From Verrucomicrobiota bacterium (GTDB lineage Bacteria > Verrucomicrobiota > Verrucomicrobiae > Limisphaerales > UBA11358): a DNA stretch of 62,054 nucleotides. The notes beneath the pieces are model-generated. The model was not told the origin of the DNA. It did no database searches and saw only the letters and a list, made by a program, of their open reading frames with translations. Location: the NCBI GenBank assembly GCA_014860005.1, contig JACZKP010000149.1:1-62054 (forward strand), in the 5' to 3' direction. The translations under genes and the position numbers were made by a program. Shown one piece after another: positions 626-60,636 of the stretch (positions are counted from its first letter, which is position 1; every line of letters begins with the position of its first letter).

Positions 626-659
626 TCATGTAAACGGGTCACCCTTGCCATGAACCGGA

Positions 660-717
660 GTGGCACAGGCGTCCCGCCTGTTCGATTCGATTCGAACGGG
701 CGAGACGCCCGTGCCAC
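660..717. repeat. 58-bp palindromic element, family A, intergenic copy
   Basis: The element has near-perfect inverted arms: GTGGCACAGGCGTC at the left and GACGCCCGTGCCAC at the right, around a centre rich in TTCGATTCGA. An element of the same length with the same arms and centre lies at 39726-39783, inside an ABC permease gene. Translated, both copies give a peptide of the form A-S-R-x-x-x-S-I-R-T-G-x-T-P-V-P-L. Confidence 0.85.
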
Positions 718-806
718 TACCGTCGCGGGTCGTCGTCGGTTCATGGTCCCAGTGCGCGCCCAATTTGGGGTGGAGTCTCCCCGTGAATCCCCCGGCCCTT
801 TGGGCC

Positions 807-16458: not shown

Positions 16459-17652
16459 GTGATTCACGACGCTACACTCGATGATTTGCTGCAACGGGTC
16501 TGGAACGGCCAACGCGTTACGCCATCCGATGCTTCGCGTCTCTATCACCTGGCGCTAGAGGAACTGGGCGCGCTGGCGGATCGGCGGCGCCAACTCGCCA
16601 AAGCCAACGCCTACCAGGGGCGCGGCAACGCCATCGTGACCTACAACGTTGACCGCAACGTCAATTACACCAACATCTGCAATGTCTATTGCAAGTTCTG
16701 CGCTTTCTATCGCACGGAGAAGGACGACGACGCCTACGTAATTTCTCTCGAAGAAATGGATCGCAAGATCGAGGAAACAGTTGCGCTCGGCGGCACGCAG
16801 ATTTTGATGCAAGGCGGACACCATCCCAAGCTCACCAAACAGTGGTATCTGGATTTGCTCGCGCACATCAAAGCGAAGTTTCCGCAGGTAAATATCCACG
16901 GGTTCAGTCCCAGCGAGTTCATCCACTTCCGCGAAGTGTTCAACGAGCCGTTGGAAGAGATCATCGGCGAGTTCAAAGCGGCCGGGCTTGGCTCGATTCC
17001 CGGCGGCGGCGGGGAGATTCTTGTGGACCGCGTGCGCCAGCGCATTGCGCCGCTCAAAGCCATGAGCGACGACTGGCTCGCAGTCATGGACGTGGCGCAT
17101 CAGTTGGGACTGCATTCGAGCGCCACGATGATGTTTGGGCACGTCGAGACGATTGAGGATCGCATCGCGCACTTGGAAAGGTTGCGCGCGCAGCAGGACA
17201 AGTCACTGCAACGTGCTTCCGGCATCGTGCCGGAAGATCAAGTTTCAGTCCCCGCAATGGCTGAAAACAAATTGGCTCTGCCGGCGGGAAGTGCGGCAAC
17301 ACGTTATGGCCATTTCACCGCGTTCATCTGCTGGACGTTTCAAGCCGAGCACACCAAGCTCCGCGCACCCACCGTCGGCGCGCATGATTATCTGCGCACG
17401 CAGGCGCTTGGCCGCATCTATCTCGACAACTTCGAGAACGTGCAAAGTTCGTGGGTCACGCAAGGACCGGAGATCGGCCAGATCGCGCTTAAATTCGGCG
17501 CGAACGATCTCGGCAGCATCATGATCGAGGAAAATGTCGTCTCGCAGGCCGGCACAACCTTCCGCATGACCGTGGCCGACATGCACCGGCTCATCACCGA
17601 GCTGGGTTACGAACCGCGCCAACGGGATAATTGGTATCGGTTGGTGAACTGA
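16459..17652 (+). CDS. mqnC: Cyclic dehypoxanthinyl futalosine synthase MqnC, with an in-frame insertion
   Basis: 397 residues. A radical SAM enzyme with C74-x3-C78-x2-C81 (CNVYCKFC) binding the 4Fe-4S cluster, plus GGTQILMQGGHHP and GLGSIPGGGGEILVDRVR. It cyclises dehypoxanthine futalosine in the futalosine route to menaquinone. Most of the sequence follows the family closely, but residues about 248-285 replace what is normally a 3-4 residue turn before the FTAF-WTFQ motif, making the protein about 35 residues longer than usual. The DNA of that insert carries a palindrome. Flanking conserved motifs stay in frame, so the protein is probably made. No other mqn genes are nearby. GTG is the start codon. 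Confidence 0.93.
   Translation: MIHDATLDDLLQRVWNGQRVTPSDASRLYHLALEELGALADRRRQLAKANAYQGRGNAIVTYNVDRNVNYTNICNVYCKFCAFYRTEKDDDAYVISLEEMDRKIEETVALGGTQILMQGGHHPKLTKQWYLDLLAHIKAKFPQVNIHGFSPSEFIHFREVFNEPLEEIIGEFKAAGLGSIPGGGGEILVDRVRQRIAPLKAMSDDWLAVMDVAHQLGLHSSATMMFGHVETIEDRIAHLERLRAQQDKSLQRASGIVPEDQVSVPAMAENKLALPAGSAATRYGHFTAFICWTFQAEHTKLRAPTVGAHDYLRTQALGRIYLDNFENVQSSWVTQGPEIGQIALKFGANDLGSIMIEENVVSQAGTTFRMTVADMHRLITELGYEPRQRDNWYRLVN
17200..17313. repeat. Palindrome-bearing in-frame insertion inside mqnC
   Basis: A segment of about 114 bp with no counterpart in the expected MqnC sequence. Near its left end is a perfect hairpin, CTTCCGGCA-TCG-TGCCGGAAG (17216-17236). The insert encodes a polar, low-complexity peptide (SGIVPEDQVSVPAMAENKLA) and keeps the frame. 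The exact borders are uncertain by a few codons. Confidence 0.7.
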
Positions 17653-38736: not shown

Positions 38737-40506
38737 TCAGTGGTGCCGGCTCCGGGCGAAGGCAAACGGAGCGAGGCTCACCCGCACCAACGGCAGCGCG
38801 AGCACGGCCAGGAGGGCCAGCAAGTGGCTCATCGCCCCACTGACGGGCGCGATCAAAACCAGCAGGAGCAAAGCTTCGGTGCCGAACAGCCAAGCGGTGA
38901 AATACTTCAGGGCGGTTCGCGCTGAAACCATTCCCCGCTGCATCGCAACGCTGCACAGACGCGCGGCCAATCCCAGCTTGAGCAGACAGCAAATGGCCAA
39001 CGTCCACGGCAGCCAGGCCGGTTCCAGCAGGAGTCGCTCGAATTCCACGGGATGCTGGAGACACCACATGCCCAGCCCGGGTGCCGAGAAGAGAGTGATG
39101 AAGACAACAATGCACACGGAGAGATTGAAAAGGTATTTGTTTTCCAACACTCCAAGGTAAATGTTCGCCGCCAACAATCGCCACGTTAGCAGGATCAGAG
39201 TTGCGAAGACGAACAGGACCACCACCGCCGACAGCACCACGATTCCGGTCAAAAGGTCCGGTTGAAAAGTTTGCAGCACAAAGAAGGAATTGACCGGCAA
39301 CCGGCTCCAGTCCACGCACGCTGCAAGCCAGAGAGCGGTCATCACGAAAACCAGCAGCCAGGTGACGAAGGCGCTCCACGCCGCGGTCTTGAGTTTCGCC
39401 GCGCACCAGACTTCCCCGGTCATCGGGCGCATGGCGTGAAACAGGGTCAGGCCAAGTTCCTTCCCCCAGAAATTCGTTTTACCAAATCCTTGTCCGATGA
39501 TGAAGGCGAGCGCAAAGGGCAGAACGAAGATCCAGAATAGAATCCAAAGGATCAGGTTTGCCGACAGTGGTTCGCCTGCCGAATAGCGGACCAGTGTGGC
39601 CGGGAGGACGATCAGCAGCAGCACCACGCCGACGCTGGCGGGCAACAGGATGCCGTTGCGACGCCACTCGAACCAGGATTGGGCGGCCTCCGCCGAGGCA
39701 AAAGGTTTTGGCCGCGCCGGCGACAGTGGCACGGGCGTCGCGCCCGTTCGAATCGAAACGCACGAGCGGGACGCCCATGCGACTAACAGGTTCATTGAAA
39801 CAAGCCGAATTCGGGGCCAGGTGATTTTGAAACTCGCGCCATGCCGTTGTCGCCCCACGGCCCAGCAGGCGGCGCAATACGACGCGACACTCAACGCACA
39901 CAAAACGCCCATTTGGATCGTATGCAGGTTCACGAACCGGGAGCGTTCCGTGCCTGGCATTAAGAAGCGGAGGATGTCCGCGCTGAACAGTATCCATCCG
40001 AAAGTCAGGACGGTGCCGAACACGCCCAGGACAATCAGGCGGGTGATGCGGAAATTGGCCAACGCCCAGACGATGGCTTGGAAACAAACCATCCCGGTCG
40101 CCAGATAAAGGCACGGCCAGCCGAAGGGAAATGGTACGGACCTATGCCGGAAGACCAAGCCCGCCCAGCCGAGATAAATCAGGCTGACGGTCGCCGCACC
40201 GAAGAGCATAGGGTGGATGACCAGTTGCCAGGTCCGCACCGGCAAGGTGAATAGTCGCACTGGAAACCCCGTGAACCGCTGTTTCCGATCACTCTCGGTG
40301 AATTTGAGACGGACGAAGACCACTGCGAGCGACAGCGCCATCGGCAACGTGCAAAAATCAACAAACCTTTTGCTTGCAGCCGGTGTTCCGGACAGGAACT
40401 GCTGAACAATAGCGCAAGCGGGAATAGCCGCGAGCACGGCCAGAAACGTAAAGCGGCTTTCCCGGCAGATTTCCCAAACCATGGCGGCCCCCGGGGAACG
40501 GGTCAT
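38737..40506 (-). CDS. ABC-2 type transporter permease with an inserted palindrome
   Basis: 589 residues from the ATG at 40506; earlier in-frame starts overlap the ATPase gene. A dozen or more hydrophobic segments form two halves (first about 15-240, second about 275-589). Between them, residues 242-260 are encoded by a 58-bp palindromic repeat also found at 660-717, giving WASRSCVSIRTGATPVPL in a polar linker. The permease is the membrane part of an exporter with the ATPase at 40533. It is the last gene of the gntR-ATPase-permease operon. The cargo is unknown. Confidence 0.82.
   Translation of the reverse strand: MTRSPGAAMVWEICRESRFTFLAVLAAIPACAIVQQFLSGTPAASKRFVDFCTLPMALSLAVVFVRLKFTESDRKQRFTGFPVRLFTLPVRTWQLVIHPMLFGAATVSLIYLGWAGLVFRHRSVPFPFGWPCLYLATGMVCFQAIVWALANFRITRLIVLGVFGTVLTFGWILFSADILRFLMPGTERSRFVNLHTIQMGVLCALSVASYCAACWAVGRQRHGASFKITWPRIRLVSMNLLVAWASRSCVSIRTGATPVPLSPARPKPFASAEAAQSWFEWRRNGILLPASVGVVLLLIVLPATLVRYSAGEPLSANLILWILFWIFVLPFALAFIIGQGFGKTNFWGKELGLTLFHAMRPMTGEVWCAAKLKTAAWSAFVTWLLVFVMTALWLAACVDWSRLPVNSFFVLQTFQPDLLTGIVVLSAVVVLFVFATLILLTWRLLAANIYLGVLENKYLFNLSVCIVVFITLFSAPGLGMWCLQHPVEFERLLLEPAWLPWTLAICCLLKLGLAARLCSVAMQRGMVSARTALKYFTAWLFGTEALLLLVLIAPVSGAMSHLLALLAVLALPLVRVSLAPFAFARSRHH
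39726..39783. repeat. 58-bp palindromic element, family A, copy inside the permease gene
   Basis: Arms GTGGCACGGGCGTCGCG and, at the other end, CGGGACGCCCATGCGAC, imperfectly inverted, with GTTCGAATCGAA in the middle. Same length and plan as 660-717. It is read without a stop in the permease frame. Confidence 0.85.
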
Positions 40507-44830: not shown

Positions 44831-44901
44831 GGGCGCAGCATAAAAGAGCGAACACGAATTGCACGAAATTTCACGAAATTAGGCGCGGATATGTTGTCAA
44901 A

Positions 44902-44961
44902 ATGATGAGGTCAGAATAATCAAGCCCAGACTAATCTGTCCCATTATTCTGACCGCATCAT
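44902..44961. repeat. Large inverted repeat between recF and trpS
   Basis: ATGATGAGGTCAGAATAAT (44902-44920) and ATTATTCTGACCGCATCAT (44943-44961) pair over 19 bp with one mismatch and a 22-nt loop. An additional TTCTGACCC follows. There is no T-tract; it could slow transcription between recF and trpS or be another dispersed palindrome. Confidence 0.8.
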
Positions 44962-44972
44962 TCTGACCCGGG

Positions 44973-49468: not shown

Positions 49469-51859
49469 TCACGACAGGCTCACCGGATCAATATCCACCG
49501 TCAGTGTCACATCGTCCGGTAGCGCGAGTGTGGTCATCATCGTTGCCAGGGCCCGGCTCAATTTACTCATCGCGCGGGTGCGAAGCATCAGTTGATAGCG
49601 ATAGAAAGTCTCGGCGCGCAGCAACGGCGCGGGCGCGGGCCCGGCGATGACCAAGTCGTGAAAGTGGGTGGGTGGGAAAGTGGGTGGGTGGGAAATCCCG
49701 CCAGCCGATTTCGTCTCGTTCTTCTCACGTTCCCACTTTCCCACTTTCCCACTTTCTTTGTCTCCGCTCGACGTGAGTTTATCCAGTTCGCGTCGGACGT
49801 GCTCGGCCGAGAACTTCACCTTCTCCTCGTTGCGGCCTTTGAGCGTGAGCAGGGCCACGCGGCTGACGGGCGGATATTTGAGTTGCTCGCGAAATTCGAT
49901 CTCCTGTTCATAGAAACCCACGAAGTCATGCCGGCGTGCGTATTGGATCGCGGGATGAAACGGCGTAAACGCCTGCACGAACACCTCGCCCTCCACGTCG
50001 CCCCGGCCCGCGCGTCCGGCCACTTGCGTCAGAAGTTGAAACGTCCGTTCGCCCGCGCGAAAGTCCGGCTGATGCAACGCCAGGTCCGCGTAAATGATGC
50101 CCACGAGTGTCACGTTTGGAAAATGCAGCCCCTTGGCGATCATTTGCGTGCCGACGAGAATATCAATCTTCCCGGTGCGGAAGTCACCGAGCACGCGCCG
50201 GTAGTCGTCTTTGCGCTTCATCACGTCGGCGTCCATGCGCTTGACCCGGGCGTGCGGAAACAGTTTGGCGAGCGTATCCTCAACTCGCTGCGTACCCAGG
50301 CCGGAATAGCGGATGGCCGGATTCCGGCATTTCTCGTTGGGGCAGGCAGCCGGCACAGGCTCAACGTGCCCGCACAGGTGGCAACGCAAATTCTGCTCTG
50401 GACGATGGTAGGTAAGCGACAGACTGCAATTGGGGCACTCGGCCACATAGCCGCACAACAGACATTGCAGCGAAGTCGAATAGCCGCGCCGGTTCAGAAA
50501 GAGAATCGTCTGTTCGCCGCGTTCCAGGCGCTGCGTGATGGCTTCCTTTAGTTGCGGCGAAAAAATCAAATTGCCCTTCTCCTTGCGCGCGGCCTGGCGC
50601 ATGTCCACCACGCGCACATGCGGCATCTTCTGATTGTCCACGCGCTCGGGCAGTTCCAGCAGGGTGTATTTGCCGCGTTTGCAGTTGTAGAAGCTTTCGA
50701 GCGACGGCGTGGCCGATCCGAGCACGACCACCGCGTTCTCCATCTGGCCGCGCACGATGGCCACGTCGCGGGCGTGATAGCGCGGGGCTTCCTCCTGCTT
50801 GTAGGTGTGTTCGTGCTCCTCATCCACGATGATGAGGCCCAGCGGTTCAATGGGCGCAAAGATCGCTGATCGCGCACCGATGGCGATCCGCGCGCGGCCC
50901 TGGCGAATCTTGTGCCACTCATCATGCCGTTCGCCGGCGGACAAATGACTGTGCAACACGGCGACCAGCGTTTGCTGCGGCCCATGACAAAAGCGCGCCT
51001 TGAAACGCTCCACCGTTTGCGGTGTGAGGGAAATCTCCGGCACGAGCACGATGGCGCCCTTCCCTTTCGACAAGGCGTAGTCGAGGGCCTGCAAATAAAT
51101 CTCCGTCTTTCCGCTGCCGGTTACACCGTGGAGGAGGAACGTGTGAGTGGGTGAGTGGGTGAGTGGGGGCGCGTTTGGCGTGGCGTGCGACTTCCCGCTC
51201 ACCCGCTCACCCACAAACTCACTCACCGGACCCATCGCCGTGGTGACCATTCGGAGGGCGGCAGCCTGCGCCTCATTCAATGCCAGCGTCTGACTGGGCA
51301 GGATGTGTTCGCGCGCATAAGGATCACGCTCGGAAATCTGCGGCGCGATCTCAATCAGGCCGCGGTCTTCCAGCCGCCGCACGGTCGCCGCGGTGGTTTC
51401 GACCAACGCCAGCAAATCTGTCAGCGGCAACTCGCGACGCTCCTCGATGATGTTCCACACTTCCTGCTGTCGTTTGGGCAGTTTGGGAAACTCGCCGCTG
51501 ACCGGCAAAGCGCGCACGAACAAGCGCTCGCGCCAGCCACTCTCCTCGCGGCGCACGACTTCGGGCAGCACGCTCTTGAGCGCAATCTCCGGCGCGCAGC
51601 AATAGTAATCCGCAATCCAACGCGCGAGCCTGAGCACCTTGGGGGTGACGAGCGTCTGCGCGCCGATGACCTTGATGATCGGTTTGAGTTTCGCATGGGC
51701 GGATTCCTCGGCGAGGGCGGTGACCACGCCCAGGACTTTGCGCGGGCCGAATGGCACCTGCACGCGGCTGCCCACATCCACCCTGCCGGCCAGGCCGGAT
51801 GGCACGAGATAATCAAACTCCTTGCGGAGGGCGATTTCCAGGCTGACACGCGCGATCAT
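49469..51859 (-). CDS. priA: Primosomal helicase PriA with two in-frame repeat insertions
   Basis: 796 residues, against about 730 usually. N-terminal 3'-end binding domain (EFDYLVPSGLAGRVDVGSRVQVPFG). SF2 helicase: LLHGVTGSGKTEIYLQALD, LIIVDEEHEHTYKQEE, VVLGSATPSLESF. Zinc sites with eight Cys (LLCGYVAECPNCSLSLTYH...CHLCGHVEPVPAACPNEKC). Then GTQMIAKGLHFPNVTLVG and QVAGRAGRGDVEGEV. Residues about 211-239 and 701-733 interrupt conserved stretches and are encoded by inverted GTGAGTGGG-type and GTGGGTGGG-type repeats. All catalytic motifs survive in frame. PriA restarts stalled forks. Confidence 0.94.
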   Translation of the reverse strand: MIARVSLEIALRKEFDYLVPSGLAGRVDVGSRVQVPFGPRKVLGVVTALAEESAHAKLKPIIKVIGAQTLVTPKVLRLARWIADYYCCAPEIALKSVLPEVVRREESGWRERLFVRALPVSGEFPKLPKRQQEVWNIIEERRELPLTDLLALVETTAATVRRLEDRGLIEIAPQISERDPYAREHILPSQTLALNEAQAAALRMVTTAMGPVSEFVGERVSGKSHATPNAPPLTHSPTHTFLLHGVTGSGKTEIYLQALDYALSKGKGAIVLVPEISLTPQTVERFKARFCHGPQQTLVAVLHSHLSAGERHDEWHKIRQGRARIAIGARSAIFAPIEPLGLIIVDEEHEHTYKQEEAPRYHARDVAIVRGQMENAVVVLGSATPSLESFYNCKRGKYTLLELPERVDNQKMPHVRVVDMRQAARKEKGNLIFSPQLKEAITQRLERGEQTILFLNRRGYSTSLQCLLCGYVAECPNCSLSLTYHRPEQNLRCHLCGHVEPVPAACPNEKCRNPAIRYSGLGTQRVEDTLAKLFPHARVKRMDADVMKRKDDYRRVLGDFRTGKIDILVGTQMIAKGLHFPNVTLVGIIYADLALHQPDFRAGERTFQLLTQVAGRAGRGDVEGEVFVQAFTPFHPAIQYARRHDFVGFYEQEIEFREQLKYPPVSRVALLTLKGRNEEKVKFSAEHVRRELDKLTSSGDKESGKVGKWEREKNETKSAGGISHPPTFPPTHFHDLVIAGPAPAPLLRAETFYRYQLMLRTRAMSKLSRALATMMTTLALPDDVTLTVDIDPVSLS
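49661..49757. repeat. In-frame inverted repeat element 2 inside priA
   Basis: The left arm has AAAGTGGGTGGGTGGG repeated twice; the right arm has TTCCCACTTTCCCACTTTCCC. The arms are complementary around a 45-bp centre. The element encodes the polar segment KVGKWEREKNETKSAGG before the conserved C-terminal AGPAPAPLLR. Confidence 0.8.
51143..51227. repeat. In-frame inverted repeat element 1 inside priA
   Basis: Left arm GTGAGTGGGTGAGTGGGTGA, right arm CCCGCTCACCCGCTCACCCA then ACTCACTCACC. It is made of 7-8 bp units and inverted. It encodes residues about 211-239, immediately before the Walker A strand. Confidence 0.8.
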
Positions 51860-56930: not shown

Positions 56931-58538
56931 GTGAATACTCGTTGGCGCATCACTTTGGGCGCAGTGGCAGTGGTGATGGTCTTTCTGGCCGTGACGGCAG
57001 TCGTGTTTCCCCGTGAGCCGGTGTATGAAGGCCGGCGTTTGAGCGCGTGGTTGCGCGACCTTGACGTAAGCCGGGGCACTGGAGTCAACGTTCAACCTCC
57101 CGCGCGACAGGCGGTGAAGCAGATCGGCACCAACGCCCTGCCGTTCCTGCTCAGGATGCTCAAGTCCCAGGACCCGGAATGGAAAAGCCAGTCGGTCACC
57201 TGGTTGCAAGACACGTGCGATCTGGACCTGAGCGCATCGCTGGCCGAAGCACAACGGCGACGGGCGTTGCGCGGTTTTCAAGCGCTGGGTCGCGACGCGG
57301 AACCCGCCATCCCGGAGTTGCGCGCCCTCGCGTTTGGGAACGACAATTTGGCGGCACTCCATGCGTTGGAAGCGTTACGCGGCATCGGTGGGCCGCAGAT
57401 CCTGCCCGTGCTGTTCGAGGCGCTTAATCTCACCAATCCGCCTTTGCGCGCGGAGGCCATTGCCGCGCTCGGCAGTGCCCGCAGCCGGGCGCGCGATGCC
57501 GTGCCGCAACTTCTGAAGGAATTTGAATCTCCGGACAGTCTGACGCGCATTCAAGCCGCGCAAGCCTTGGGAGAAATTGCCACGCATCCCGAGTTGACCA
57601 TCCCCGCTTTGACGCGCTGCCTGGCCGACTCGGAAACGGGCGTCAAAACGGCGGCGGCAATGGCCCTGGGTTCTTTCGGGACCAGGGCGATTTCCGCCCT
57701 GCCCGCCTTGCGCACGCTGGCCGAAAGCCCGATGAATGAAGTCCAGCGCTTCGCTCGCGTGGCCGTTGTACGCGTGCAGTGCGAAATGCATGACGGCGCG
57801 ATCATCCGCGGCCCCAAGGATCAACGCCGACTGGCTTTGGTGTTCACCGCCCACGAGTATGCCGAGGGCGCGGAAACCATACTCAATGAACTGGCGCGGC
57901 ACGAGGCGCGGGCTTCCTTCTTTCTGACCGGCGCGTTTCTGACCAACGCGCAGTTCAGCAGCCTGCTTGACCGCCTCGAATACGAGCGGCACCACCTCGG
58001 CCCGCACTCGGATCAACACCTCCTGTATTGCGATTGGGATCAAGCCGGGACCCTGCTGGTGACGGAGGAGGAATTCCACGCGGACCTCGCGGCGAACGTG
58101 GCCAAAATTCCCGGTGGCTGGAGCGAGGGCCGCCGGTTCTCGCGCTACTTCCTGCCACCCTACGAACACTACAACCGCGACATCGCCGACTGGACGCGGG
58201 CACATGGCTGGGTGCTGATCAACTTTACCTCCGGCACACGGTCAAATGCCGATTACACCGGCGAGGCGGACAAAAACTTTGTTTCCTCGCAGAAGATTTT
58301 TGACAGCATCATCGCCCGCGAACGCGAGGATCCCGATGGGTTGAACGGTTTCCTGCTGCTGTTGCACCTCGGCGCGGGACCGGGTCGCACGGACAAATTC
58401 CACACGCGCTTCGGCGAATTGCTCGACTACCTCGCCCTGCGGGGGTATGAGTTTGTGCGTGTTGATGAATTGCTCAGACCACCCCGCGATCCGAATTTCC
58501 CCGGTGGCTTCCGTCCTCCGGGCAGGTCGAAAGGTTAG
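56931..58538 (+). CDS. Membrane-anchored HEAT-repeat protein fused to a polysaccharide-deacetylase-like domain
   Basis: 535 residues. N-terminal anchor (ITLGAVAVVMVFLAVTAVVF). Residues about 55-285 are HEAT-type repeats (AEPAIPELRALAFGNDNLAALHALEALRGIG; PLRAEAIAALGSARSRARDAVPQLL). Residues about 300-525 resemble NodB-fold deacetylases: LALVFTAHEYAEGAETILNELARH, ASFFLTGAF, GPHSDQHLLYC (H359-S-x-x-H363 metal motif), YFLPPYEHYN (the RPPY loop). The usual first motif TFDDG is FTAHE, so the metal/base Asp is missing. In Bacteroidetes this domain type is found joined to GH9 enzymes; a GH9 gene follows directly here. Confidence 0.8.
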   Translation: MNTRWRITLGAVAVVMVFLAVTAVVFPREPVYEGRRLSAWLRDLDVSRGTGVNVQPPARQAVKQIGTNALPFLLRMLKSQDPEWKSQSVTWLQDTCDLDLSASLAEAQRRRALRGFQALGRDAEPAIPELRALAFGNDNLAALHALEALRGIGGPQILPVLFEALNLTNPPLRAEAIAALGSARSRARDAVPQLLKEFESPDSLTRIQAAQALGEIATHPELTIPALTRCLADSETGVKTAAAMALGSFGTRAISALPALRTLAESPMNEVQRFARVAVVRVQCEMHDGAIIRGPKDQRRLALVFTAHEYAEGAETILNELARHEARASFFLTGAFLTNAQFSSLLDRLEYERHHLGPHSDQHLLYCDWDQAGTLLVTEEEFHADLAANVAKIPGGWSEGRRFSRYFLPPYEHYNRDIADWTRAHGWVLINFTSGTRSNADYTGEADKNFVSSQKIFDSIIAREREDPDGLNGFLLLLHLGAGPGRTDKFHTRFGELLDYLALRGYEFVRVDELLRPPRDPNFPGGFRPPGRSKG

Positions 58539-58713: not shown

Positions 58714-60636
58714 ATGTTGCTGCTCGTTTTTTTAGGGCTAACGCTTTGCCTGGCCAACACCCAAGCCGGCGAAATCTTCATTCGCGCCAACCAAGTCGGC
58801 TACGGCACGCGCGACGTGAAGAACGGCATCGCGTTCTCGAAATCGGCTCTGCCCCAAAGCTTCACCGTGACGGAAGTCGAATCTGGAAGGATTGCTTTCA
58901 CCGGCCACACGCGGAGCGTTGAAGGCGTGCGCTGGGGACAATTCGAGTTGCACTCCGAATTGGATTTCACGCCCCTGCGCCAACCGGGACGCTACGAACT
59001 GCGCGTGGGCGATGCCGTTTCGCATCCGTTCACGATTGGCGAAGCCTACGCGGCGTTGCCGGCGCAACTGCTGGAGTTCATGCGGCAGCAACGCTGCGGC
59101 TACAATCCCTGGCTCGACGCAGTGTGCCATCCCTTCGATGGCCGCACCGCTTACGGGCCTTTGACCAACGGCACCTACCTGGACGCACGCGGCGGCTGGC
59201 ACGACGCGGCCGATCAACTTAAATACCTGCTCACCTCGGCCAACGCCACCGCGCAGATGCTACTTGCTTATCAACTTGCGGAACCCTCTTCGCGTCCTCC
59301 CTCACCCCAGCCCTCTCCCGCTGGGAGAGGGAGAAGCAATCAAAGCACTAAGAATAGCTCTTACGTCGCCGAGCTTTCGCAGACAGCCGACAGTCGCTCC
59401 CTTCCCCCAAGGGAGAGGGACGGGGTGAGAGGAGAGCGTGCATCCATGCTTGCCGACGATTTCAATGCCCTCGGCCAGCCCGCCGCCAACGGCATCCCGG
59501 ACCTGCTCGACGAGGCGCGCTGGGGACTCGAATGGATGCTCAAACTCCATCCCGCGCCCGATCAGCTTTATCATCAGGTCGCCGATGACCGCGACCACGT
59601 CGGCCGCCGTCTGCCGCAACACGAGATTGCCGATTACGGCTGGGGCAAGGGCAGTTATCGCGTCGTCTATTTCGCGGACGGGCAGCCGCAGGGTTTGCAG
59701 CAATATCAGAGCGCTTCGACTGGGGTCGCGAATCTCGCCGGGCGTTACGCGGCGGCCATGGCACTGGCGTATCAGATTTGGAAGGACGATCCCGCCCAGC
59801 GCGCGTTCGCGATGCGCTGTCTTCAGGCGGGTCAGGAAGTCTATGCCTTGGGTCGCGCGCAGGAAGGCGTGCAACAGGGTAATTCCTACAAAGCCCCGTA
59901 TCGCTACGAGGAAACCACCTGGGCCGACGACATGGAATGGGGCGCGGCGGAACTCTATCGCGCCACGCGTGAACGGCGTTATCTCGACGACGCCAAACGT
60001 TACGCCAGGCTCGCCGCGGACGAAGGCTGGATGGGCCGCAAACAGACCGGTCATTACCAGTATTACCCCTTCATGAACGCCGGCCACTTCCGGCTGTACG
60101 ATCTGGTGAACCGGTCCTTCAAGAAAACGCTGGCCGGCTACTACCGCGACGGCATCGAACGCTGCGTGCAGGCCGGCGAAAAAAATCCATATCGCGCCGG
60201 CGTGCCGTTTATATGGTGCTCGAACAACCTCCTCGTGGCGCTGGTCACGCAATGCCTGATGTACGAGCGCATGACGGGCGACCCGCGCTATCGCGAATTC
60301 GCCGCCCAGCAACGCGACTGGTTGCTGGGCCGCAATCCGTGGGGTTACACGATGTTCACGGAAATCGGCACGCTATTTCCGAAAGACCCGCACCTGATGA
60401 CCATGCAGATCACCCGGCGCACCGTGCCGGGCGGACTGGTGGACGGGCCGGTGTATGAACGCATTTTCAAATCGTTGCGCGGCGTGGCCATTACCGAACC
60501 GGACCCGCTGGCGGCGTTTCAAGGCGAACTGGCCGTGTACCACGACGACGTGCAGGATTACTCGACCAACGAACCTACCATGGACGGCACCGCCTCGGCG
60601 ATTCTGATGTTCGTGCTGGGAACTGGCAATCGCTAA
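58714..60636 (+). CDS. GH9 endoglucanase-like enzyme with an in-frame repeat insertion
   Basis: 640 residues from the ATG at 58714 (MLLLVFLGLTLCLANTQAGE is a signal peptide); the longer frame upstream is repeat DNA. CelD-type Ig domain (IFIRANQVGYGTRDVKNGIAF). Catalytic (alpha/alpha)6 domain: GGWHDAADQLKYLL (the two acidic residues), GIPDLLDEARWGLEWMLKLHP, GRNPWGYTMFTEIG and the acid YSTNEPTMDGTASAIL. Residues 194-240 (SRPPSPQPSPAGRGRSN onward) interrupt the fold and are encoded by a palindromic element, yet the frame is kept. It probably cleaves beta-1,4-glucan outside the cytoplasm. Confidence 0.88.
   Translation: MLLLVFLGLTLCLANTQAGEIFIRANQVGYGTRDVKNGIAFSKSALPQSFTVTEVESGRIAFTGHTRSVEGVRWGQFELHSELDFTPLRQPGRYELRVGDAVSHPFTIGEAYAALPAQLLEFMRQQRCGYNPWLDAVCHPFDGRTAYGPLTNGTYLDARGGWHDAADQLKYLLTSANATAQMLLAYQLAEPSSRPPSPQPSPAGRGRSNQSTKNSSYVAELSQTADSRSLPPRERDGVRGERASMLADDFNALGQPAANGIPDLLDEARWGLEWMLKLHPAPDQLYHQVADDRDHVGRRLPQHEIADYGWGKGSYRVVYFADGQPQGLQQYQSASTGVANLAGRYAAAMALAYQIWKDDPAQRAFAMRCLQAGQEVYALGRAQEGVQQGNSYKAPYRYEETTWADDMEWGAAELYRATRERRYLDDAKRYARLAADEGWMGRKQTGHYQYYPFMNAGHFRLYDLVNRSFKKTLAGYYRDGIERCVQAGEKNPYRAGVPFIWCSNNLLVALVTQCLMYERMTGDPRYREFAAQQRDWLLGRNPWGYTMFTEIGTLFPKDPHLMTMQITRRTVPGGLVDGPVYERIFKSLRGVAITEPDPLAAFQGELAVYHDDVQDYSTNEPTMDGTASAILMFVLGTGNR
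59295..59433. repeat. 139-bp palindromic element inside the GH9 gene
   Basis: Ends TCCTCCCTCACCCC and GGGGTGAGAGGA are inverted. Each side has an inner hairpin: CTCTCCCGCTGGGAGAG on the left, and TCCCTTCCCCCAAGGGA on the right. The core CCCTCACCCCAGCCCTCTCC is a type of dispersed repeat seen in many GC-rich genomes. Confidence 0.85.

Follow-up and report, generated by a model that had tools for sequence, protein, structure and literature searches.

In-frame palindromic inserts in a GH9 gene and other conserved genes of a Verrucomicrobiota bacterium, and RAYT transposases nested in host enzymes of related bacteria

Repeats inserted in genes are usually pictured as damage, whereas the conserved proteins from environmental genomes described here carry lineage-specific repeats as loops. 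The case that raises the question lies in a stretch of 62,054 nucleotides from a Verrucomicrobiota bacterium (contig JACZKP010000149.1; the whole stretch is called the window below), where a GH9 enzyme gene is interrupted by palindromic DNA and stays open. What is this element, how did it come to be kept inside an enzyme gene, and is the case a single one? We consider it highly probable that an old in-frame BoxC insertion has become a tolerated, disordered loop of the GH9 protein, and that several palindromic families recurrently fill permissive loops. The features of the gene are as follows.

58714..60636, plus strand: GH9 gene (Pfam GH9 9.6e-75, CelD_N 1.6e-12); the stop-free frame extends up to 58345, and the listed ORF has its first ATG at 58447
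59295..59433, no strand: BoxC-type composite palindromic insert, read in frame, defined by its arms, folding and inverted-repeat score; copies at the same place in related genomes G001, G002 and G003
59299..59331, minus strand: left motif CCCTCTCCCAGCGGGAGAGGGCTGGGGTGAGGG, exact TM_ECO/BoxC consensus (PMC4666352)
59334..59396, no strand: spacer of the composite; 15, 20 and 18 of 63 sites differ from the three compared GH9 copies
59397..59430, plus strand: right copy of the motif, inverted and imperfect, recognised by comparison of the arms

The BoxC-type composite in the GH9 gene

A sequence-only reading of the window had described a 139-bp palindromic repeat with a nested hairpin and inverted ends at 59295-59433, and the element proved to have this structure. 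Its arms of 33 nt each (59301-59333 and 59397-59429) form an imperfect inverted pair that is 79% complementary, with 63 nt between them, and the left arm contains a perfect 9-bp hairpin, CCCTCTCCC/GGGAGAGGG. Single-strand folding of 59285-59445 was stronger than that of all 200 shuffles (z -4.4), and the inverted-repeat score of the loop DNA (z 9.6) was equalled in none of 60. The open frame runs across the element, whose translation is a stretch rich in Pro, Arg and Ser with TAQMLLAYQL on one side and NGIPDLLDEARW on the other, as that reading had also noted. The consensus CCCTCNCCCN3-6GGGNGAGGGN3GGGNGAGGG, taken for TM_ECO/BoxC from PMC4666352, had one exact match in the window, at 59299-59331 on the minus strand, and none in 100 shuffles; the exact motif occurred in 60 of 446 loci, and the element is a repeated one in each related genome given below. 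The element ends, read by eye, bear no GTAG tag, and without it the GH9 element does not qualify as a RAYT-mobilised REP. Beside the inverted arms no clear target-site duplication, as would be expected of a MITE, was seen by eye. When plasmids were searched by BLAST with the element, short matches were obtained in 82 records, 73 of them from Klebsiella, Escherichia, Enterobacter or Citrobacter, and none covered more than 80% of the query. A phage origin was rejected because none of 50,697 phage records was matched in blastn, and so was a known RNA element, as Rfam found only a tRNA across the window.

Structure prediction, which the sequence-only reading had proposed as a check, supported the picture of an added loop. 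The AlphaFold model of the GH9 protein built from a diverse alignment had a pLDDT of 86.2, and its sole segment below 50 was residues 192-243, corresponding to window positions 59287-59442; an earlier model from close homologues was poor (pLDDT 58.5) and was set aside. Foldseek assigned the model to the GH9 fold, with 3x17_A, a GH9 endoglucanase, as top match (E 1.6e-31).

Relatives were drawn from genome contigs, using the best 80 of 252. Three of them (L001, L002 and L004, in genomes G001, G002 and G003) have the element at the same place of the GH9 gene and in frame, so the insert is real beyond one assembly. Over each whole genome the element found at least 55 (G001), at least 18 (G002) and at least 67 (G003) matches, arms and strands being counted apart. 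Alignment across most of its length was confined to the GH9 copies in all three genomes, the other matches spanning about 21-57 nt, and the copies in the window and the three relatives therefore most simply represent one and the same old insertion. An intact paralogue elsewhere, which would have spoken against the original interpretation, was not seen among close sequences, since G001 and G003 each gave a single GH9 match at E<=1e-80. The dN/dS of the insert compared with the rest of the gene was 0.97 versus 0.09 for L131 (G001), 0.62 versus 0.16 for L082 (G002), and 1.09 versus 0.14 for L132 (G003). As protein, the insert thus drifts almost neutrally, and the remainder of the gene is constrained.

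Loop contents and the reading frame of dispersed repeats

The GH9 loop was compared in 120 homologues and the window, with labels assigned by our own sequence patterns. A BoxC-type peptide was present in 8 of the 120, one of them a short variant, as well as in the window, and its length was kept in P0001, P0006 and P0007. Three closer homologues (P0002-P0004) are without the element and have SPSP at the site, perhaps a remnant of it. In the remaining homologues the loop was either filled by other repeat-like peptides or short, 28 rows being labelled "other" and 35 "short". As to whether GH9 received one BoxC insertion or several, the BoxC-type label required 5 changes on the homologue tree, despite which the spacers of several BoxC-type copies look related. 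Great variation among the homologues marks the loop as an insertion hotspot. Tandem-repeat-like peptides also occupy it (P0010, P0079 and the SPKSKVQS-type rows), and the loop therefore seems to accept repeats generally, beyond palindromes.

Further inserts of the window are listed below, GATPV being a family name coined in this analysis.

51140..51232, minus strand: PriA loop 1, palindromic insert (z 7.0); in G214 and G082 this loop is occupied by an entire RAYT
49658..49783, minus strand: PriA loop 2, palindromic insert (z 10.1)
17209..17310, plus strand: MqnC loop, with a weakly palindromic insert (z 2.0) that four relatives lack
39715..39790, minus strand: permease insert, a copy of the GATPV palindrome family, shared with G001 (L348)
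659..718, plus strand: second GATPV palindrome copy, outside the genes listed for the classifier described below

Five in-frame palindromic inserts had been counted in the sequence-only reading. Four of them, in GH9, the two PriA loops and the permease, stand as described; that in MqnC holds as an insert, with 34 residues against 1-5 in four relatives, and is weak as a palindrome, since 5 of 60 shuffles scored as high and z 2.0 gives no support for a strong one. In the permease, the insert is 77% identical to its reverse complement over 60 nt and is a member of a dispersed family; G001 alone among 11 genomes has an orthologue, which carries the same insert, so no empty site was seen. Two other strong palindromes lie at 995-1067, towards the upstream end of ORF 935-2476, and at 44896-44967, between two genes. 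Inverted repeats of that strength numbered five in the window and none in 10 shuffles.

Comparison of orthologues, gathered for the family of G001 (PriA from 11 of 11 genomes, MqnC from 10), found different families in the same loops. The MqnC loop holds different palindromic families by species and is reduced to 1-5 residues in four species, and both PriA loops differ in content among species. An inverted-repeat z above 3 was reached by 15 of 39 loops of at least 18 residues, a count which includes the two PriA loops of G001 twice, compared with 1 of 117 control segments. The families in the MqnC, PriA and permease loops are dispersed repeats. One palindromic family had at least 80 matches in G001, at least 80 in G011 and at least 82 in G012, with fewer or none in the other eight genomes; the GATPV family, present in 5 of 11, had at least 19 in G001, at least 22 in G005 and at least 8 in G003; and a third had 9-76 matches listed per genome in all 11. 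Since palindromes are often matched on both strands, the places are fewer than the matches.

The relation of such copies to coding sequence was determined with a codon-usage classifier, which had 94.6% frame accuracy on 221 test pieces and a sensitivity of 0.86. Among 211 sampled copies of four families, 66 were in frame in coding sequence (query copies included, and site L301 counted under two families), one shifted the frame and none introduced an in-frame stop; the rest were between opposite genes (1), coding on one side (45), noncoding (94) or too near an end (4). Against an assumed 1/3, the binomial p for this frame filter is 1.5e-30. Three other settings gave 53-75 copies in frame and 0-1 shifts, and an earlier, smaller pass, superseded by the 211-copy set, gave 17 of 79 and no shift. 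BoxC copies were in frame in 9 of 55 cases. The 31% in frame is probably an overestimate, because the sampled copies are the best matches to intragenic queries, and for this reason only the scarcity of frame breakers is claimed, not the exact share; random 66-bp stretches passed through the same classifier gave 45% (G001), 40% (window) and 34% (L001-L080). Inside coding sequence, then, frame-breaking copies are scarce, and a frame filter on repeat insertions is measurable in these genomes. The elements are not specially stop-free, as open frames per copy were about equal to or below those of shuffles.

Of the ORFs hosting the 66 in-frame copies, 40 were chosen and 38 of these have a Pfam domain; the hosts include leucyl-tRNA synthetase, RecG, RecJ, UvrA, UvrB, UvrD and anthranilate synthase. 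Other copies of these families are translated in another frame or from the opposite strand, giving unrelated peptides. The general acceptance of palindromic DNA as protein segments, for which the sequence-only reading had argued from this window, is supported by these counts and by the occurrence of different families in one and the same loop. The inserts also show, as a map drawn by nature, where enzymes such as DnaE, PriA and MqnC tolerate insertions, and annotators may note that repeat DNA can be the source of Pro/Arg/Ser-rich "insertions" in proteins of this kind.

In the account that we favour, a BoxC-type composite would have entered the GH9 loop long ago, its length and frame keeping the gene open, and would add about 50 residues to the protein as a disordered loop, with the enzyme fold kept, the loop near-neutral and the gene still under selection. 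Several palindromic families would meanwhile disperse through the genomes of this bacterial group; frame-breaking copies would be lost and in-frame copies in permissive loops of conserved proteins would persist, so that the same loops would be refilled repeatedly with different elements. We infer that the GH9 product is made and is stable with its insert, and that insertion took place by transposition through some BoxC mobilising enzyme.

Pure neutrality is insufficient for the left arm. It has 2 of 35 sites changed in each of three comparisons, against 15-20 of 63 in the spacer, and 1 of its 8 four-fold sites is changed, against 128 of the 214 elsewhere in the gene (window 59299-59333 versus L131, L082 and L132; binomial about 0.009, post hoc and by our own arithmetic), while the dS of the insert is below that of the gene (0.27 versus 1.13, G003). 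The arm (59299-59333) is thus synonymously more conserved than the rest of the GH9 gene, with gene conversion or structure as candidate causes. The motif forms a triplex in vitro (PMC4666352), and a DNA or RNA hairpin or triplex could itself be selected, for example in transcription or translation pausing, with the peptide as by-product. We think this unlikely, since the right arm has decayed (5/34, 8/34 and 7/23 sites changed), three close relatives keep just a short remnant-like peptide, earlier work cited in PMC4666352 detected no effect of these elements in vivo, and gene conversion from dispersed copies could also have preserved the arm.

The recurrence of the peptide in 8 homologues and the window, with its length kept in three, could instead point to a selected functional loop making, for example, substrate or wall contacts. 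This is improbable given an insert dN/dS of 0.6-1.1, orthologues with unrelated repeat-like stretches or short loops at the site, and the unrelated peptides that the same families encode elsewhere; near-neutral drift and unrelated contents in orthologues led us to reject peptide function as the main reading. Removal of the inserts after transcription or translation, by splicing or bypass of a new type, would explain tolerance in many proteins, and no support for it was found. Rfam gave only the tRNA over the window, and the frame was kept in 66 of the 67 cases with same-strand coding on both sides, which counts against RNA removal, as that would not need the frame; such a mechanism is very hard to credit. 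An assembly artefact or a pseudogene is just as far from likely, as three further genomes have this insert, each on its own contig (the length of one is 472,895 bases), with dN/dS of 0.09-0.16 in the rest of the GH9 gene.

Relation to known intragenic repeats

The sequence-only reading had also called the feature undescribed, and this does not stand, because in-frame palindromic repeats as a kind are already published: the Rickettsia RPE, reviewed in PMC10969869 and also cited in PMC3733652, and the REPs that PMC3733652 describes in Opitutus terrae and other species. RPE are palindromes of about 100-150 bp lying in frame in unrelated genes (Ogata 2000, 2002, via PMC10969869 and PMC3733652). 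The GH9 element, a palindrome in frame inside a conserved gene, resembles them in behaviour, and differs in that another lineage and several families are involved and orthologous loops are refilled by different families. Intragenic GTAG/CGTC REPs are most numerous in Opitutus terrae and R. conorii, frequent hosts being the uvr, rec, DnaE2 and tRNA synthetase genes, and Xanthomonas recB has different REPs at about the same site (PMC3733652). These too lie within ORFs, but they are units of 20-40 bp or groups of such units, and the accessible text of that paper mentions neither a BoxC composite nor an in-frame whole RAYT. Enterobacterial RU-1/2/3 (ERIC) repeats fused to ORFs are likewise small repeats translated as protein parts, but belong to other sequence families and are often at one protein end (PMC2759123).

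With BoxC, PIT or TM_ECO of E. coli the element shares the exact consensus, its repetition and, in some cases, inverted pairs about 100 bp apart. E. coli K-12 has 23 copies, which are always intergenic, whereas the copies here lie in frame inside genes (PMC4666352). BoxC and RPE families are both listed in PMC2267715.

RAYT transposases nested in host enzymes

The DnaE of G001, one of the hosts of GATPV palindromes, is a single open frame of 1526 residues in which PHP, NTPase and finger domains are followed by a Y1/RAYT domain and then by HHH and OB. Its RAYT is flanked by perfect 28-nt inverted ends beginning GTAG. The GATPV family thus has the mark of a RAYT-mobilised REP, GTAG-tagged palindromes flanking a RAYT in the DnaE case, and its mobiliser is likely a RAYT transposase; in the clearest cases a RAYT stands between matching GTAG-tagged palindromes. 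At this site of DnaE, G003 likewise has a RAYT, and other species have short stretches, a peptide that we read as GATPV-type, or almost nothing. G001 and G003 each possess one RAYT-bearing DnaE and one distant relative of 33% and 35% identity. Between the two genomes RAYT dS is 1.94 and host dS 0.44, which argues against simple common descent and makes replacement or separate insertion at one site likely. In both RAYT-bearing DnaE genes (L349 2-4582, G001:C37; L400 594-5285, G003:C148) a BoxC-type stretch lies further upstream in the same frame.

A search with the G001 DnaE RAYT found matches in 111 of 313 genomes of the order, and among the matches listed 45 of 150, including all of the best 22, were held by open frames of at least 500 residues (one through a stop). 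The hosts of 25 in-frame RAYT loci, assigned by Pfam or sequence (L425 and L426 by sequence only), were a DinG-like helicase (8), DnaE (6), a UDPGP-like protein (5), PriA (2), SNF2 (2), a methylase (1) and one without assignment; L419 and L423 start at a contig end within the RAYT. In the two PriA cases (L434 and L444, in G214 and G082) a complete RAYT occupies the loop where the window has its small palindrome. Several species have an in-frame RAYT in a DinG-like helicase (L402 254-3211, L421, L425, L426, L431, L433, L435 and L436), and where the flank was inspected (L402/L428, L425, L426, L433 and L436) the RAYT comes after the MTSATL motif. A Y1_Tnp domain was present in 22 of 23 long ORFs scanned, and a narrow HUH pattern in 81 of the best 120 database proteins. 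In 24 in-frame cases the longest exact inverted stretch was 9-33 nt, with GTAG/CTAC in 8, of which 4 were only 11-13 nt.

When 44 RAYTs were placed on a tree, 5 changes of the in-frame label were needed; shuffled labels needed 14.4, and in none of 500 shuffles was the number so small. The DnaE RAYTs, six in all, clustered with a support of 86. Of six RAYT pairs one was saturated, and the other five had a dN/dS of 0.08-0.19; in-frame RAYTs are thus under purifying selection in all five informative pairs. We regard as evenly balanced the proposal that this RAYT lineage would be an in-frame nested domain of host enzymes (DnaE, DinG-like, PriA, SNF2, UDPGP-like and others), inherited with the host gene under purifying selection and dispersing GTAG palindromes that fill the same kind of loops. 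The element would then persist as a tolerated part of an essential protein, and the loops would be shared landing sites for anything from about 60 bp to a whole transposase.

With RAYT/TnpA_REP and REPtrons (PMC6006769, PMC8266576, PMC3733652) these genes share the Y1 domain and adjoining GTAG palindromes; what sets them apart is the position of the transposase, in frame within a host enzyme. Searches of full-text literature, chiefly the main text of papers outside subscription, turned up neither a translated BoxC nor a host enzyme with a RAYT nested in its frame; a translated BoxC composite, loop refilling by different families at this scale and, above all, in-frame transposases were thus not found in print. 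In-frame RAYTs would be a little-noticed transposase lifestyle, and one RAYT survey discarded unexpectedly long proteins as arising from fusions or annotation errors (PMC6006769).

A length-restricted protein search returned 1597 long proteins with a RAYT domain at E<=1e-15 among 3109 candidates. In 116 of the best 120 of these the RAYT is nested, with at least 100 residues on both sides, and the hosts of the best 120 are DinG-like (42), DnaE (36), UDPGP-like (29), SNF2 (1) and others (12). A RAYT-like domain also occurs in a protein named alanine-tRNA ligase-related from Planctomycetota (set P0125, P0132-P0134, P0151 and P0217), and further hosts in that set have Pfam accessions which we take to be those of methionine synthase, IspG and glycogen debranching.
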